Below, in pieces: positions 17,805 through 29,737 of a DNA stretch of 39,352 nt (its first letter is position 1; every line of letters starts with the position of its first letter). The stretch is from Nitrospirota bacterium (GTDB taxonomy: Bacteria; Nitrospirota; Nitrospiria; Nitrospirales; Nitrospiraceae), in the NCBI GenBank assembly GCA_023248295.1, contig JAHFEU010000002.1, forward strand, positions 9,858 to 49,209. The letters are read 5' to 3'. The position numbers and the translations under genes are program-made. Under the pieces are notes generated by a model, which was given only the letters and a program-made list of their open reading frames with translations, was not told the DNA's origin and did not search any database.

Positions 17805-18935
17805 ATGCCGCGCATTCTGATCGTGACCGGTGAGGCATCCGGCGACCTGCACGGCGCCAACTTGGCGGCGGCCCTCCGAGCGCTCAGACCCGACGTGGAC
17901 ATCCTGGGCGTGGGGGGACCCAAGCTGAGAGCCGCCGGCGTCCGGTTGGTCCAGGGCATCGAGCGCCTGGATGTGATGGGGATGATCAGGCTGGCCGAGC
18001 TGCGGGTCGCGCTCCGCAACTACGCCACGCTGGCCCGCTTTCTGCGCCGGGAGTCCTTCGACGCCGTGGTCTTCGTGGATAACCCGGGGTTGAACCTGCG
18101 GCTGGCCCGTGTGGCAAAGGGGGCGGGGCATCGGGTCGTCTATTACATCGCTCCCCAAATTTGGGCCTGGCGCCCTGGCCGGATCCGGCTCATCTCGCGC
18201 GTGGTGGACCGCATGATCGTCATCCTGCCGTTCGAGGAGGCTCTGTACCGGCAGGCGGGAGTTCCCTGCACGTTCGTGGGGCACCCGCTGTTGGACGCCG
18301 TGGCCCCGTCGTATGATCGGGCTGAACTGCGCAAGCGGTTCGGGTTCAAGACGTCTGCCCCGGTGGTCGGACTGCTGCCCGGAAGCCGCGAGCGGGAGGT
18401 CCGGTCGTTGGTACCGGTGATGATGGAAGCCGCGGCGCGGATGGCGCGGTGGCATCCGGGGCTCCAGGTCGTGGTCGCGCAGGCCTCTTGGATCAGGGAG
18501 GGCCTCATCGAGGAGTTGGCGGCCGGCGGCGGTTTGGGCGTGCGAGTCGTCTGCGACCAGCCCAACGAGGTCATGGCCGCCTCGGATCTCCTGTTGGTCG
18601 CGTCAGGAACCGCCACGCTCCAGGCGGCCGTAATTGGCACCCCGATGGTGATCACCTACCGAACGTCGTGGATCTCATATTGGCTGGCGCGCCTGCTGAT
18701 CCGGGTTAACTGGATCGGGCTGGTCAATATCGTGGCGGGCCGCGGGATCGTGCCGGAGCTCGTCCAGCATGAGGCCACCGCCGAGCGGCTGAGCGAAGAA
18801 GGCCACCGGCTGCTCCGCGACGAGGCGGCCCTCGGCGGAATGCGTGCGGCCTTCCGGGCGGTGCGGGACTCGCTCGGCTCACCGGGCGCTTCACGGCGCG
18901 CCGCGGAAGCGGTGCTGAAGGAGTGCCGGGCATGA
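17805..18935 (+). CDS. lpxB: lipid-A-disaccharide synthase LpxB
   Basis: This 376-residue GT19 glycosyltransferase joins UDP-2,3-diacylglucosamine to lipid X, giving the lipid A disaccharide on the inner face of the inner membrane. Its hallmarks are GEASGDLHGANL at residues 8-19, VFVDNPGLNLRLA, YYIAPQIWAWRPGRI, FVGHPLLD, LLPGSREREV and ASGTATLQAAV. ATG 17805 gives the standard N-terminus; the open frame upstream belongs to the repeat and to another reading frame of the previous gene. The stop overlaps the msbA start. Confidence 0.96.
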   Translation: MPRILIVTGEASGDLHGANLAAALRALRPDVDILGVGGPKLRAAGVRLVQGIERLDVMGMIRLAELRVALRNYATLARFLRRESFDAVVFVDNPGLNLRLARVAKGAGHRVVYYIAPQIWAWRPGRIRLISRVVDRMIVILPFEEALYRQAGVPCTFVGHPLLDAVAPSYDRAELRKRFGFKTSAPVVGLLPGSREREVRSLVPVMMEAAARMARWHPGLQVVVAQASWIREGLIEELAAGGGLGVRVVCDQPNEVMAASDLLLVASGTATLQAAVIGTPMVITYRTSWISYWLARLLIRVNWIGLVNIVAGRGIVPELVQHEATAERLSEEGHRLLRDEAALGGMRAAFRAVRDSLGSPGASRRAAEAVLKECRA

Positions 18936-20671
18936 CGCTGTTTCTCCGGCTCCTTCGCTATCTGTGGCAGTATCGGCTGCGCCTGGTGGCCGCCTTCCTC
19001 TGTTCCGCGCTGGTGGCCGGCCTGACGGCGGCCTATGCCTGGCTGGTCCGGCCGGTGCTGGACGGCATCTTCATCAGCAAGGATCAATTCCTGCTGATGG
19101 TGCTGCCGCTGGCGATCCTGGGTGTGGCCGTGCTCAAAGGAATCTTCAGCTACGGGCAGAACTACCTGATGAGCTACGTCGGCAATCAGGTGATCACCGA
19201 CGTCCGTCAGGAGCTGTTCCTTCAGCTCATGCGCCTGCCGGTCGGATTCCACGATTCCACGACCTCCGGGCGGCTGATGTCGCGCGTGATCAACGACGTG
19301 AATTTGATGGCCAACGCCGTTGCGGGTGTCCTGAAGGATCTCTTCCAGCAGGGGTTGACCTTCGTCGCAATGATGGGAGTGATCTTCTATCAGAACTGGA
19401 AGCTGGCGGCGGTCTCGGTCATCGTGACCCCGCTCTCGTTCGTGACCATGGTCCGGATGGGCCAGCGCCTGCGGGGATTGTCAACGCGCGGGCAGGAAAA
19501 GATCGGCGATATGGCCTCGGCGTTGCAGGAGACCCTCGCCGGAATCCGGATCGTGAAGGCCTTTGGTCGAGAGGACTCCGAAGCGCTGCGGTTTCGTGAC
19601 AGCAATAAAGCGTATCTACGCGCCACCATGAAGGCGACGCAGGTCTCGTCCCTCGCGTCTTCGCGAATGGAGGTGATCGGTGTCCTGGGCGTCGTCACGA
19701 TCATCTGGTACGGGGGCTACCTGGTGATCGATGGCACGATGACGCCGGGCGCCTTCTTCTCGTTCCTGGCGGCGATGTTCATGGCCTACACCCCGATCAA
19801 ACGCCTGGCGGGAGCCAACAATACCATTCAGCAGGCGCTCGCGGCTGCCGAACGGGTCTTCCAGGTCCTGGATCTGCCGAACGAGCTGGACCGGGACCGG
19901 GGGGGCCACGAGCTGCAGCCCCTCACCCGCTCGCTGGAGTTCAGAGGGGTGAGTTTCCGCTATGAAGGGAGCGGCGCGCCGGCTCTCATGGGCATTCATC
20001 TGTCGGTGAAGGCTGGAGAAGTCCTGGCGCTGGTCGGCAGCAGCGGGAGCGGAAAGACCACGCTGGCCAGCCTCGTGCCACGTTTCTACGAGCCTGCCGA
20101 AGGCTCTATCCTGATCGACGGCCAGGATATCCGGCAGTGCACGCTCCGGTCTCTCCGCAGTCAGATCGGGATCGTCTCACAGGACACCGTGCTGTTCGAT
20201 GACACCGTGAAGAACAACATCGCCTACGGACGGGCGGGGGCCACGGACCAAGACGTGGAGAAGGCGGCAAGACTGGCCTACGCGCACGAGTTCATCACTC
20301 GGCTGCCGGAGGGATATCACACGCTCATCGGAGAAAACGGGATCAAGCTCTCGGGGGGAGAGCGGCAGCGGTTGGCGATCGCCCGGGCCATCTTGCGGGA
20401 CCCGCCCATTTTGATCTTGGACGAGGCGACTTCCTCATTGGATTCCGAGTCCGAGCGGATGGTCCAGCTCGCGTTCTCCAACTTGATGAGGAACCGGACC
20501 ACGCTCGTGATCGCGCACCGGCTCTCCACGGTGCAGAGCGCGGATCGGATCGTGGTCCTGGACCGAGGCAGTATCGTGGAATCCGGGTCACATGAGGAGT
20601 TGCTGCAGCGAGGGGGACTGTACAAGCGGTTCCATGCGGTGCAGTTCCAGGACATGGACGCGCCTCGTTAA
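18932..20671 (+). CDS. msbA: lipid A export ABC transporter MsbA
   Basis: This 579-residue ABC half-transporter flips lipid A-core across the inner membrane as a homodimer. It has a six-helix transmembrane domain (residues ~1-310, including the GRLMSRVINDVN coupling region) followed by a nucleotide-binding domain with Walker A GSSGSGKTT, Q-loop IVSQDTVLFDDTV, signature LSGGERQRLAIARA, Walker B ILILDEATSSLD and the switch His in VIAHRLST. ATG 18932 overlaps the lpxB stop (ATGA); a GTG at 18923 is in frame. The lipid A context supports MsbA over a generic exporter. Confidence 0.92.
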   Translation: MTLFLRLLRYLWQYRLRLVAAFLCSALVAGLTAAYAWLVRPVLDGIFISKDQFLLMVLPLAILGVAVLKGIFSYGQNYLMSYVGNQVITDVRQELFLQLMRLPVGFHDSTTSGRLMSRVINDVNLMANAVAGVLKDLFQQGLTFVAMMGVIFYQNWKLAAVSVIVTPLSFVTMVRMGQRLRGLSTRGQEKIGDMASALQETLAGIRIVKAFGREDSEALRFRDSNKAYLRATMKATQVSSLASSRMEVIGVLGVVTIIWYGGYLVIDGTMTPGAFFSFLAAMFMAYTPIKRLAGANNTIQQALAAAERVFQVLDLPNELDRDRGGHELQPLTRSLEFRGVSFRYEGSGAPALMGIHLSVKAGEVLALVGSSGSGKTTLASLVPRFYEPAEGSILIDGQDIRQCTLRSLRSQIGIVSQDTVLFDDTVKNNIAYGRAGATDQDVEKAARLAYAHEFITRLPEGYHTLIGENGIKLSGGERQRLAIARAILRDPPILILDEATSSLDSESERMVQLAFSNLMRNRTTLVIAHRLSTVQSADRIVVLDRGSIVESGSHEELLQRGGLYKRFHAVQFQDMDAPR

Positions 20672-20776: not shown

Positions 20777-21432
20777 ATGGTCACGTGGCTAAAACAGACG
20801 CTGCTCCCGCCCATCGGGGCCTGGCTGATCCGGCTCTTGGGGAAGGCCGTCCGCATCCGGACGGAAGGAGCCGAGACCGTGGATGAGCTGTACCGTCAAG
20901 GCCGGCGCATGATCATCGCGTTCTGGCACGGGCGGCAGCTCATGATGCCCCTTACCTATCGTGGAGCACAGGCGCATATCCTCATCAGTCAGCACCGCGA
21001 CGGAGAGTTGATCCATCGTATCGTGAGCCGCTTCGGGTTCCGTTCGGTGAGGGGATCCACGACCCGCGGCGGTGCCGCGGCCCTCCGACAGCTCATCGAG
21101 CTCGGGCATTCAGGCGTGGACCTGGTGGTCACACCAGACGGACCCCAGGGCCCGCGGCAGGTGGTCCAGATCGGGGTGATCCACCTGGCGAAGGCCACCG
21201 GCCTCCCGATCGTTCCGCTCACGTTCAGCTGCTCAAAAAAAAAGTCTTCGTGAGTTGGGACCGGTTCCTGCTGCCGTATCCGTTCGGCCGAGGACTGTTC
21301 CTGTGGGGGAAGCCGATCTGGGTCTCGCCTGAGGCGACGGAGGCCGATCTGGAATCCAAGCGGGTCGAGCTTGAGGAGGCCCTGAACCGGATCACGGCGG
21401 AAGCCGACGCGGCCGTGATGCGTGAAGGGTGA
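20777..21432 (+). pseudogene. DUF374 / lysophospholipid acyltransferase-like gene interrupted by a -1 frameshift
   Basis: The first frame (20777-21253) encodes the start of a DUF374 protein: AFWHGRQLMMPL with a conserved His, SQHRDGELI, RGSTTRGGAAALR and VTPDGPQGPR. The second frame (to 21432) continues it with VSWDRFLLPYPFGRGLFLWGKP. They join only by a -1 shift at nine A's (21235-21243). Without the shift the protein ends SCSKKKSS at TGA 21251-21253, losing about 60 residues. The family is thought to transfer acyl chains to lipids and sits here between msbA and waaA. The A-AAA-AAG heptamer at the break could allow ribosomal or transcriptional slippage, so the gene may be functional. Sequencing error in a homopolymer is the simplest alternative. 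Confidence 0.82.
21238..21244 (+). promoter_or_regulatory. candidate -1 slippery heptamer A-AAA-AAG
   Basis: In the zero frame the codons are TCA AAA AAA AAG TCT TCG TGA. The heptamer is in register for -1 slippage, the same kind used in E. coli dnaX. A shift gives Val-Phe-Val-Ser-Trp, the expected continuation. I see no strong downstream hairpin or upstream Shine-Dalgarno stimulator. Confidence 0.45.
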
Positions 21433-21484: not shown

Positions 21485-22915
21485 ATGTGGTATCTCGCAT
21501 ACAATATCCTGCTGATCCTGGCTTCGCCGTTCATCGCCTTGATCCTCCTGGCCAAGAAGCGATGTCGGCCTGGTCTCGCCCAGCGACTGGGTTGGTCCGG
21601 CGGTTTGTTTGGTTTGTTTCGCTCATCTGGTTTGTTTGGTTGGTTAGGACTAAAAAAACTAGAGAAACTAGACAAACCAAATAAACCGGACAAACCGGTT
21701 TTGTGGGTCCACGCCGTGTCGCTCGGCGAGGTGGTGGCGGTTGTGCCGCTGGTGCGCCTGCTCCACAGTCGGTACCCGGAGTATCGACTGGTGGTCTCGA
21801 CGGTCACCGACACCGGACGGGAGGCGGTGGAGCAGCGGCTCGCCGGCGTGGCCGAACACCGTTATGCTCCGTTGGATTTTCCGTGGGTCGTCTCGCGCGT
21901 CGTGGGGAGGCTGAACCCGGCCGCCTTTCTCTTCGTCGAGACGGAGCTGTGGCCGAATCTTCTCAGAGCGCTCTCGCGGCGCGGCGTGCCGTCCATCTTG
22001 GTCAACGGCCGATTGTCGTCCCAGTCGTTCAAAGGGTACGGGCTCGTCCGGCCCTTCATCAGTCGGGTGCTCGAGACCGTCACGTTCTGCTTGATGCAGT
22101 CTGGACGGGACGCCGAACGCATGGTCGCACTGGGCGCCGCGCCGACCCGCGTGCTGCGCACCGGGAACATGAAATTCGATCAGCCCGTCCCCGGCCACGC
22201 GGGCCAGCAGGATGGGCTCTCGCGTCGCGAGATCAATCTGGCCGAGCATGAAGAGTTGATCGTGGCCGGGAGCACCCACCCGGGGGAAGAGGAGCAACTC
22301 TTGTCCTGCTACCAGACCCTGCTCCGGGAGTTCCCTTCGTTGGTCCTCCTGCTCGCCCCCCGTCACGTAGAACGAGCGGCTGCCGTCGAAGCCGCCGTGA
22401 GGTCGAGAGGGTTGGCGGCTGTGCGTCGGAGCGCATTCCGTGAACTCGGCGCGACCTCGCGTCAACACGGGGCTCCCCGAGTGGTGATCCTGGACACGCG
22501 AGGGGAGCTGGCGGCTGTCTACCAGCATGCGGTCCTTTCATTCGTGGGCGGGACGCTGCTACCGGTGGGGGGCCATAATCTCCTGGAGCCTGCGGTCTGG
22601 AGCAAGCCTGTGTTCTTCGGACCCCACACCGACCATTGCGCGGAGGTGGCCGAACTTCTAGTCCGGGCCGGCGGCGCGGTGCGGGTCCGCGACGGGGTTG
22701 AACTGGCTGCCGAGATGGCCGGGCTGCTTCGAGACCGGGCGGGTCTGCACCGCATGGGTGCGGCGGCCCGGGGAGTGGTCATCGAAAACCAGGGGGCGGT
22801 CGAGCGAAGCCTCGAGCTGATCGGACGCGTACTGGGGAGCCGTGAGCGCTCTGATGGGAAGCTGCCGGTCGGCCAATCCTCCCATGCCGCGGGCATGGCG
22901 AAGGTTGAGCGATGA
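21485..22915 (+). CDS. waaA: Kdo transferase (3-deoxy-D-manno-octulosonic-acid transferase)
   Basis: This 476-residue GT30 enzyme adds Kdo from CMP-Kdo to the lipid A precursor at the cytoplasmic face. An N-terminal membrane anchor (residues 1-25) is followed by a GT-B fold with the catalytic-type Glu in WVHAVSLGE, VSTVTDTGRE, FVETELWPNL, NGRLSS, AGSTHPGEE, LAPRH and GGHNLLEPA. Residues 40-71, between anchor and catalytic domain, are encoded by the type B palindrome: a Gly/Leu/Phe-rich stretch followed by a Lys/Pro/Asp/Asn-rich one. ATG 21485 matches the usual N-terminus; the frame is open from 21422 only across the upstream repeat. Confidence 0.93.
   Translation: MWYLAYNILLILASPFIALILLAKKRCRPGLAQRLGWSGGLFGLFRSSGLFGWLGLKKLEKLDKPNKPDKPVLWVHAVSLGEVVAVVPLVRLLHSRYPEYRLVVSTVTDTGREAVEQRLAGVAEHRYAPLDFPWVVSRVVGRLNPAAFLFVETELWPNLLRALSRRGVPSILVNGRLSSQSFKGYGLVRPFISRVLETVTFCLMQSGRDAERMVALGAAPTRVLRTGNMKFDQPVPGHAGQQDGLSRREINLAEHEELIVAGSTHPGEEEQLLSCYQTLLREFPSLVLLLAPRHVERAAAVEAAVRSRGLAAVRRSAFRELGATSRQHGAPRVVILDTRGELAAVYQHAVLSFVGGTLLPVGGHNLLEPAVWSKPVFFGPHTDHCAEVAELLVRAGGAVRVRDGVELAAEMAGLLRDRAGLHRMGAAARGVVIENQGAVERSLELIGRVLGSRERSDGKLPVGQSSHAAGMAKVER
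21602..21697. repeat. type B inverted repeat, copy 1 (inside waaA)
   Basis: The left arm (21602-21647) is built of 9-bp units like GGTTTGTTT. The right arm (21659-21697) has the complementary ACAAACCAAATAAACC units. The 96-bp element equals exactly 32 codons and keeps the waaA frame open. Its AT-rich composition contrasts sharply with the flanking coding sequence. Confidence 0.9.
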
Positions 22916-22922
22916 AGAGAGC

Positions 22923-24068
22923 ATGATGGACCTCAGCGAGCGCAAGGCTCTGGGCGGTTATCAGGAGAGGTCCCGCGCATTGCCTGTTACCGGTCTCATA
23001 GGACCCGGGATTAGCGAGCGTCGTTCCTCATTCCTCAGGTGGCCGCTTCGGGCGCTGGCCTTGCCCTATGGGCTCGCGGTCCGGGCGCGCGCCGCGCTGT
23101 ACGAGCGAGGCTGGCTGCCCCGGCGAAGGCTGCCCTGTCGTGTGGTGAGCGTCGGCAACCTGACTGTCGGGGGAACCGGAAAGACTCCGGTCGTGATCTC
23201 GATCGCGGAATGGCTGCTCGCCCGCGGCAAACGGGTCGGGGTGCTGAGCCGGGGCTATCGCCGGCGGAGCCGGGCGCCGCGGCTGCTGGTCTCGGACGGC
23301 CGGACGATCCTGGAGGGGCCGGCTGATGCGGGAGATGAGCCGCATCTGATCGCGTGGCGATGCCCCGGGGCGGTCGTCGCGGTCGGGTCGGATCGGTACC
23401 GCCTGGGCCGATGGGTTCTGGAGCGGTTTCCGATCGATTATTTCGTGCTGGACGACGGCTTCCAGCATCTCGCGTTGCACCGCGATGTGGATCTGCTGCT
23501 GATCGATGCCTCCGATCCGGCGGGGCTGGAGGCGCTGCTGCCGGCCGGCCGTCTCCGGGAGCCGCTGGCAGCAGCGTCCCGCGCCAGCGCGCTGCTGCTG
23601 ACGCGAGCCGATGTGGCTGCCGGTCCGAATACGCTCTTGGCTCCGATCCGAGCGGCGACCGGGCGCGACAGTCGGCCGATCCTCATCCGGTTCAGGCCTG
23701 AGGCCTTCGTGAACATGGTCACGGGGGGAATCGAGGAGGTGGCGTCCGTGTCGGGGCGCACGGCGGTGACCTTCAGCGGGATCGCGAATGCCGCCTCGTT
23801 CCGGACATTGCTGGCTGACCAGGGGGTGAAGATCCTCGACGACTTGGTCTTTCCGGATCATCACGCCTATACCGCCGGAGACCTGAACCTGATCAGAGAC
23901 CGGGCAGGGCGGTGCGGCGCGGACATGATCGTGACGACAGAAAAGGACGCCGTGAAGGTGGCGACGCTGGTTTCCCGGACGGACCGGCTCTGGGCGCTAC
24001 GGCTCCGCACCGAGATCATGGAAGGACAAGAGCGGCTGGAGGGGTTGCTCCTGGGAGAACCAGTGTGA
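22923..24068 (+). CDS. lpxK: tetraacyldisaccharide 4'-kinase LpxK
   Basis: This protein (381 residues from this start) phosphorylates the 4' position of the lipid A disaccharide at the inner membrane. The P-loop is VGNLTVGGTGKTP, preceded by an amphipathic LYERGWLPRRRLP segment. SRGYRRRS, GDEPHLIAWRCPGA, LDDGFQHLALHRD and VTTEKDAVK are typical. GAAGAGAG just before tandem ATGs at 22923/22926 supports this start. About 45 N-terminal residues precede the conserved part, so a later start cannot be excluded; an ATG at 22842 would overlap waaA. Confidence 0.92.
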   Translation: MMDLSERKALGGYQERSRALPVTGLIGPGISERRSSFLRWPLRALALPYGLAVRARAALYERGWLPRRRLPCRVVSVGNLTVGGTGKTPVVISIAEWLLARGKRVGVLSRGYRRRSRAPRLLVSDGRTILEGPADAGDEPHLIAWRCPGAVVAVGSDRYRLGRWVLERFPIDYFVLDDGFQHLALHRDVDLLLIDASDPAGLEALLPAGRLREPLAAASRASALLLTRADVAAGPNTLLAPIRAATGRDSRPILIRFRPEAFVNMVTGGIEEVASVSGRTAVTFSGIANAASFRTLLADQGVKILDDLVFPDHHAYTAGDLNLIRDRAGRCGADMIVTTEKDAVKVATLVSRTDRLWALRLRTEIMEGQERLEGLLLGEPV

Positions 24069-24141: not shown

Positions 24142-25854
24142 ATGAAGAAGGATTCGATCAAGCGAATCGTCGTGCGGGGACCTAACTGGATCGGCGACGC
24201 CGTCATGGGCGAGCCTGCGCTGAGCGCGCTGCGCGGGCTGTTTCCGGCCGCCGAGATCACGTTGCTGGTCAAGCCGACGATCGCGGAGTTGCTGGGTAAC
24301 CATCCGGGGCTGGACCGGATTCTGGTCTATGACAGCCGCCGCCAGCATGCCGGGCTCACCGGCAAGTGGGGACTGGCGCGCGCACTACGCCGCCTGCGGT
24401 TCGATCTGGCGATCCTGTTTCAGAACGCCTTTGAGGCCGCCTTGCTGACCTTCCTGGCTGGGATTCCGCGCCGGTACGGCTACGCGACCGACGGCAGGAG
24501 CCTGCTGCTGACGGATCCGATCGCGGTACCGGAACGGACAAGGGTTGTTCATCAAACCGAGTATTACCTGGAACTCCTTCGGCCGCTGGGCGCGGACGGG
24601 CCGTCCGCCTCCCCCCGACTGTTTCTCTCGGATGGCGAGGTGGATGCGATGCGCCGCAGGCTCGCTCAAGCCGGCATCGGCGAGACCGACCTCGTCGTGG
24701 GACTCAATCCAGGCTCCACCTACGGAAGCGCCAAGCGGTGGCTGCCGGAACGCTTTGCCGAGACGGCGGACCGGCTGGCGCTGGAGCACGGGGGCAAGGG
24801 CTTGCGGGTGGTGATCGTGGGAGCACGGGGCGAAGAAGCTCTGGGCCGGGCCATCGCCGAGAAGATGCAGGCCAAGCCGGTCTTGCTTTCGGGCCACACC
24901 TCCATCCGAGAACTGATGGCGGTGATCAACCGCTGCGGGCTGTTCATCACCAACGACACCGGGCCGATGCATATCGCGGCCGCGTTCGGCATCCCGGTCG
25001 TCGCCGTGTTCGGGCCGACCGATTCACGGACCACCTCGCCGTTCGGGAACGGGCACACCATCGTGCGTCATCCGGTTGAGTGCTCCCCCTGTCTCTTGCG
25101 CGAGTGCCCGATCGACCACCGGTGCATGACGCGGGTCTCGGTCGAACAGGTCTATGCAGCGGCAGTCAAAGGGTTATCTAGTTTGTCTGGTTCGTCTGGT
25201 TTATCTCGTTCTAGCGGAACAAACCAAATAAACCAGACAAACCAAACAAACCGTCTGAACGGAGTGACCGTCTTTCTGGACCGGGACGGCACGCTGAACC
25301 GGGACACCGGCTATGTCAAGACGCCGGAGGAGCTTGAGCTGTTCCCCGGCTCGGTCAGGGCCGTGGCTCGCTTGAAGCGGGCCGGCGCGCGCGTCGTACT
25401 GACCACGAATCAGTCCGGGGTCGCCCGTGGACTGCTCACGACTGCCGCGCTGGACGCCATTCACGCGCGACTGCGCGCGCTCCTGGAGGCAGGCGGCGCG
25501 TCGCTCGACGCGATCTACTATTGCCCTCACCATCCCGATGATGCCTGCTCCTGCCGGAAGCCCCAGACCGGTCTGGTGGACCGGGCGGTTGGTGAACTCG
25601 GCCTTGACCCGTCACGGGCCTACGTGGTGGGGGATCAGAACCGAGACATGGAGTTGGCCCGAAGGATTGGAGCGCGAAGCGTCCTGGTGATGACCGGTCC
25701 GACGAGCCAGGAGGCCCTCGGCCTGATGAAGTCGGATGGACTGCGGCCGGATCACGTGGCGGCCAGACTGGACGAGGCGGTAGATTGGATCATGCAGGAC
25801 GCGGCGAAGATGGAAGACCGGCAGTGGTCGTTCCCCGGGAGCCCGCAATGGTAA
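24142..25854 (+). CDS. waaF-gmhB: heptosyltransferase II fused to D,D-heptose 1,7-bisphosphate phosphatase (WaaF-GmhB)
   Basis: This 570-residue protein has two enzymes. Residues ~1-343 are a GT9 heptosyltransferase of WaaF type: [49 protein letters not shown] and the [10 protein letters not shown] cysteine segment. Residues ~374-570 are a HAD phosphatase of GmhB type: [11 protein letters not shown] (nucleophile and acid Asp), [10 protein letters not shown], zinc-site [17 protein letters not shown] and [11 protein letters not shown]. GmhB makes the phosphatase step toward ADP-heptose, which WaaF then uses. The joining linker (~344-371, Ser/Gly then Asn/Thr/Gln-rich) is encoded by the type B palindrome. 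ATG 24142 is chosen because upstream frame sequence is repeat. The stop overlaps the next start. Confidence 0.92.
25171..25252. repeat. type B inverted repeat, copy 2 (inside the waaF-gmhB fusion)
   Basis: The left arm (25171-25214) has 9-bp units such as GTTTGTCTG and GTTCGTCTG. The right arm (25216-25252) has ACCAAATAA, ACCAGACAA and ACCAAACAA. It falls exactly between the two enzyme domains and supplies the linker. The right arm is read in a different frame than in copy 1, so the DNA, not the peptide, is what the copies share. Confidence 0.92.
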
Positions 25855-29653: not shown

Positions 29654-29737
29654 GGGTTTATTTGGTTTGTCTGGTTTGTTTTGTTTCTCTGGTTCGATCA
29701 GATCAACGAGGCAAACCAGATAAACCCAGGAAACGAG
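29654..29737. repeat. type B inverted repeat, copy 3 (intergenic)
   Basis: The left arm (29654-29700) has GGTTTATTTGGTTTGTCTGG units. The right arm (29701-29737) has GCAAACCAGATAAACCC. It fills the junction completely, from seven bases after the GT9 stop to the next ATG. This is the only type B copy outside a coding region. Confidence 0.9.

Follow-up and report, generated by a model that had tools for sequence, protein, structure and literature searches.

The gene for a DUF374 (LpxJ-like) acyltransferase in a Nitrospirota genome is divided between two reading frames at a run of nine A residues, and the same break is present at the same codon in 136 genomes of the phylum. Comparison of these sequences makes it likely that the gene depends on programmed transcriptional slippage and encodes a lipid A late acyltransferase.

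Reading frames of the window gene

The stretch of DNA analyzed (the window) comprises 39,352 nucleotides of contig JAHFEU010000002.1, and its source genome is a draft MAG of 220 contigs that is 89% complete. Direct reading of the sequence confirmed an A9 run within the DUF374 gene, located as in a preliminary description of the window and followed immediately by G21244 (Table 1). The 0-frame register at the break is TGC TCA AAA AAA AAG TCT TCG TGA, and it contains the heptamer A_AAA_AAG in register, also as previously described. The 0-frame ORF matches PF04028 (DUF374) with an E value of 2.7e-27 and 94.6 bits, compared with a Pfam cut-off of 26.8. It holds the predicted catalytic His51 and Asp121 and its terminal residues are ...SCSKKKSS. 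The rest of the protein is accessible only through a -1 shift, in agreement with the preliminary description. From position 21244 the -1 frame reads VFVSWDRFLLPYPFGRG..., the translation starting with VFVSWDRF, and a tblastn search matched the N- and C-terminal halves to homologues as a single protein.

Counted on either strand, A9 occurs four times in the 2.5-Mb genome of the window. Judged from translations, the other three sites have an intergenic or terminator-like appearance, and therefore the presence of A9 at the break is not due to chance. A9 is also infrequent in the complete relatives in the window's family, with some 4-15 positions counted in genomes of 3.6-4.8 Mb, and certain members of family f2 have more such runs.

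Table 1 Features of the DUF374 locus in the window.
Feature	Position	Strand	Evidence
msbA (lipid A export ABC transporter), upstream neighbour	18923..20671	+	TIGR02203 MsbA_lipidA, 636 bits (cut-off 602)
DUF374 (LpxJ-like) acyltransferase, 0-frame ORF, ATG start, 158 aa	20777..21253	+	ORF and translation; PF04028
A9 slippage run (putative), codons TCA AAA AAA AAG	21235..21243	+	Sequence; A9/A10 in 143/143 distinct frameshifted homologues
-1 frame continuation, 62 codons and TGA (21430-21432)	21244..21432	+	Translation; tblastn of both halves; conservation
0-frame stop TGA, terminates the unslipped product	21251..21253	+	Sequence/ORF; stop position very variable among species
kdtA/waaA (Kdo transferase), downstream neighbour	21485..22915	+	PF04413, E=2.7e-60; alignment to L003 and L005
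lpxK (tetraacyldisaccharide 4'-kinase), next neighbour; true ORF start possibly downstream of the listed one	22842..24068	+	PF02606, E=4.5e-89

Conservation of the break across Nitrospirota

Scanning 84,980 species genomes for the gene yielded 24 loci. In L003-L022, titled mostly Nitrospirae or Nitrospira, the two halves are in frames that differ by -1 and share an identical one-base overlap. The more distant loci L023-L026 are in frame, as is every match from outside Nitrospirota (34-42% identity). The contigs of L016 and L021 are titled Nitrospinota and Gemmatimonadetes, and the broken gene on them is of the Nitrospirota type (67-72% identity); they are probably mislabelled or misbinned MAG contigs.

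A search of 396 genomes of the phylum located the gene in 213; in the window's family and order most of these have it as two pieces. The junction was read in 159 Nitrospirota genomes. The -1 break is present in 136 of them and an intact frame in 22, and the remaining one (G388) shows a different offset. The genomes with the break span 11 families (by family code) and 37 genera, and all 14 single-contig genomes checked have the break. Alignment of orthologues, which the preliminary description had proposed as a check, thus revealed that the A run and the break are both conserved, at the same codon, in 136/159 genomes. Locus L084 of G388 has an A10 run and, compared with its congeners, lacks one T downstream; with its different frame offset it was left out of the counts, and the difference could stem from misassembly or from a genuine second indel, perhaps still bridged by slippage. 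Four genomes of the window's family (G162, G166, G318 and G338) gave no match to the DUF374 gene, and the small size of three of these genomes (1.7-1.8 Mb) suggests that it was lost.

The broken genes comprise 143 distinct sequences, 129 with A9, 14 with A10 and none with A8, and in 27 in-frame homologues no A run near the site exceeds 7. The break and the A9/A10 run are strictly coupled. This coupling and the conservation across the phylum lend strong support to the programmed frameshift put forward in the preliminary description. The 0-frame tail beyond the break varies from 1 to 86 codons, so that the short product has no conserved end; a conserved function of the tail was rejected on the same grounds.

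Ancestry and probable reversion

The frame state was mapped on a tree built without the junction columns. It required six changes, compared with about 25 for shuffled labels, and on a reduced tree six changes compared with 17. Four in-frame lineages lie within or beside broken ones: G332 of the window's family, G378, a pair from f4, and G274 of f6. Because of this nesting they are best read as reversions, on a tree whose deep branches are weak. In all four the run was lost and the frame regained together. The clearest case is G332, where the sister sequence TGTTC-A9-CTCTTT is replaced by TGTTC-CCAAAAAACA-CTCTTT, a change that adds one base, abolishes the run and puts the gene back in frame. 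The break was probably already present in an early Nitrospirota ancestor; gene transfer between families is a possible alternative to shared descent.

Selection on the run

Synonymous conservation along the 143 distinct sequences reaches its maximum on the run. The Ser codon at the run start is TCA in 132 sequences, TCA making up ~15% of the Ser codons of this gene, and the observed codon identity is 0.93 versus 0.20 expected. The peak persists with 40 representatives, one per 75% identity cluster (observed 0.89 versus 0.19 expected). A non-A at the first position (TCT, CGC, CGT) is always accompanied by an A at the last position (Fisher p = 0.003 on the 40 representatives), and consequently the run never falls to 8. 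Only three lineages exhibit this compensating pattern, which is therefore given modest weight, as supporting and not decisive evidence.

Gain of one A in such a run is expected to be among the easiest of mutations, yet an A9/A10-bearing gene in the full-length frame was found in none of the 143 sequences. Because run-bearing genes are never in frame despite the ease of this gain, the out-of-frame state seems to be under selection. Synonymous conservation is also evident at the run-flanking codons -2, +4 and +6 (GCTC-run-TCTTxGCGAGC; window 21229-21254 and homologues), for which a pure run-length model does not account. GCTC and GAGC provide four complementary pairs enclosing the run; the pairing is complete in 96/143 sequences and absent from other lineages.

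Predicted function of the gene product

DUF374 proteins demonstrated to be LpxJ catalyse a secondary acylation of lipid A, and the residues essential in R. typhi LpxJ are W60, H61, D86, D132, W172 and D173 (PMC6148475). As in LpxJ of Rickettsia and Epsilonproteobacteria, the window protein belongs to DUF374 and carries the WH, D, D and WD motifs with near-identical spacing (50-51, 75, 121 and 161-162 versus 60-61, 86, 132 and 172-173). The window equivalents W50, H51, D75, D121, W161 and D162, assigned by motif and spacing relative to R. typhi rather than by direct alignment, are near invariant in the 143 sequences. Unlike the genes of Rickettsia and Epsilonproteobacteria, the predicted LpxJ-like gene of Nitrospirota has a conserved frameshift that interrupts it immediately ahead of WD. 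Trp161-Asp162 lies just past the break and by spacing corresponds to W172/D173. Because this pair, essential in Rickettsia LpxJ, lies beyond the break, the unslipped product should be inactive, and hence slippage should be needed for activity.

The gene is a probable lipid A late acyltransferase, and its lipid A gene neighbourhood is supportive; an msbA-like gene is located upstream in all broken loci with enough flank. No LpxL/LpxM family gene was found in the 89% complete genome of the window or in several complete relatives (for example G148, G205, G252, G180, G254, G322 and G082). In these genomes the slippage gene would be the only late acyltransferase candidate of a known type. A sequence search of the PDB returned nothing useful.

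The neighbouring kdtA contains an inverted repeat with 40-nt arms (GGTTTGTTTGG.../...CCAAACAAACC) at window 21601-21688, which forms a low-complexity in-frame insert. Versions of other lengths occur in close relatives. The repeat has about 16 imperfect matches in the genome, several of them inverted pairs, including window positions about 25177-25246 and 29661-29695.

Proposed mechanism of frame restoration

In the proposed mechanism, the gene would be kept permanently out of frame in the DNA at the A9/A10 run, and slippage of RNA polymerase on the run would generate an mRNA pool with varying numbers of A. Messages with one extra A, or two fewer, would encode the full-length enzyme, and the remaining ones would yield a predicted inactive product that stops shortly ahead of the Trp-Asp motif. 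How much active acyltransferase is made from the msbA-DUF374-kdtA-lpxK cluster would then be set by the ratio of slipped to unslipped messages. We infer the occurrence of slippage, its transcriptional nature, its efficiency and the dose-control function from the pattern of conservation.

The features expected of programmed transcriptional slippage are a homopolymer of at least ~9 residues with conserved length, as found here, and an intact conserved protein across the frame transition, W161 and D162 being present in 143/143 sequences. A length-conserved 9-A run in homologues is considered very likely to reflect purposeful transcriptional slippage (Baranov 2005; PMC1088944). Such slippage at the A9 of T. 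thermophilus dnaX accounts for about 50% of the product (PMC1088944), and evidence from E. coli (PMC5009743) was also counted in favour of the transcriptional process. The codon at the run end is AAC in 91/143 sequences (64%), AAG in 29/143 (20%) and AAA in 23/143 (16%). A run of at least nine, a last base that is mostly C and not G, and the failure to find a structure favour transcriptional slippage over a dnaX-type ribosomal heptamer. Polymerase slippage had been one option of the preliminary description, and the conservation of run length at nine or more makes it the preferred one. The dnaX-type A_AAA_AAG stands as regards its register in the window; as the mechanism it is not the best fit, with AAG in the minority and without a conserved downstream structure.

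Programmed -1 ribosomal frameshifting, in which the tRNAs would move back by one base and pair again on A_AAA_AAG/C/A in the run, is unlikely although several features are compatible with it. Every sequence has the heptamer in register, A9 contains two overlapping heptamers, and A_AAA_AAC has been proven in one IS case without a known stimulator (PMC4066793). A codon-shuffle test gave a weak stability excess at +4..+40, with a mean z of -0.33 at most, and 107/143 sequences can fold a WD..VP hairpin with 6-7 pairs. However, this hairpin begins 12 nt past the run, and conserved amino acids account for most of it. RNAalifold gave no consensus structure for the homologues, and together with the shuffle result this led to rejection of a stimulatory RNA structure; no upstream Shine-Dalgarno-like consensus was found among them either. 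Moreover, AAG, the efficient bacterial heptamer ending, is present in the window but in few orthologues, and a single heptamer requires neither the strict nine-A minimum nor the TCA codon. It is possible that polymerase and ribosomal slippage act together.

Homopolymers are a classic place for sequencing error, and the fragmented draft assembly of the window genome could raise such a suspicion. Nonetheless, an error of sequencing or assembly, the main alternative in the preliminary description, is refuted because the identical frame relation recurs in at least 136 sampled genomes, including the single-contig ones, and its probability is negligible. A homopolymer in a surface-lipid gene is also typical of phase variation, by which cells would toggle the gene through gain or loss of A in the DNA during replication. 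The run does reside in a surface-lipid gene, but with no ON-frame sequence among the 143, run lengths that differ by substitutions only and A10 sequences that keep the same -1 relation, phase variation was rejected as highly improbable. The main alternative to transcriptional slippage with a regulatory purpose concerns that purpose and not the mechanism: in a neutral ratchet the frameshift would have been fixed once through rescue by slippage and would have no present regulatory value. 'Pseudo pseudogenes' rescued by nine A's are known (PMC1088944), and the return of at least four lineages to an intact frame indicates that the shift is dispensable in some. On the other hand, the easy one-A reversion is never seen with the run retained, and conservation of the break extends over several classes of the phylum, which renders the neutral explanation rather unlikely.

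Relation to known systems and implications

Few chromosomal housekeeping genes have conserved programmed slippage, dnaX and prfB being the usual examples. The Thermus thermophilus dnaX gene likewise has a nine-A sense-strand run in a housekeeping gene, with a long and a short product expected. However, it encodes a replicase subunit rather than a lipid A acyltransferase, and its templated A9 encodes full-length tau, whereas the Nitrospirota run is templated out of frame and only slipped transcripts could give the full enzyme. E. coli dnaX shares the A_AAA_AAG heptamer in register with the window, and the -1 direction; it differs in that most Nitrospirota orthologues have AAC or AAA and the conserved stem-loop/Shine-Dalgarno stimulator was not found in them. 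IS elements and the Shigella type III secretion genes mxiE and spa13 also use transcriptional slippage on A/T runs to obtain an extended or fused product, but they are mobile or plasmid-borne with a narrow range, whereas the DUF374 gene is chromosomal and conserved over several classes. The GeneTack clusters (Antonov 2013; PMC3711429) similarly took conserved frame transitions at A-rich heptamers as evidence; the main text of that survey, which included one Nitrospirae genome, does not name DUF374. In the literature searched, no earlier report was found that connects programmed frameshifting with DUF374 or with an acyltransferase of Nitrospira. Mechanisms of this kind are known; what appears new is the instance, its breadth and the enzyme.

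Annotation pipelines will probably mark the gene as broken, though in several complete genomes it is seemingly the sole candidate for a late lipid A acyltransferase. Through the natural revertants, the question of why a gene is kept out of frame becomes open to direct test. If the proposed reading is true, programmed slippage would extend to an envelope enzyme in several Nitrospirota classes, Nitrospira included. Tentatively, much of the phylum may obtain its active late acyltransferase only via polymerase slippage, with a selected out-of-frame run setting, and perhaps sensing, the acylation of the outer membrane.
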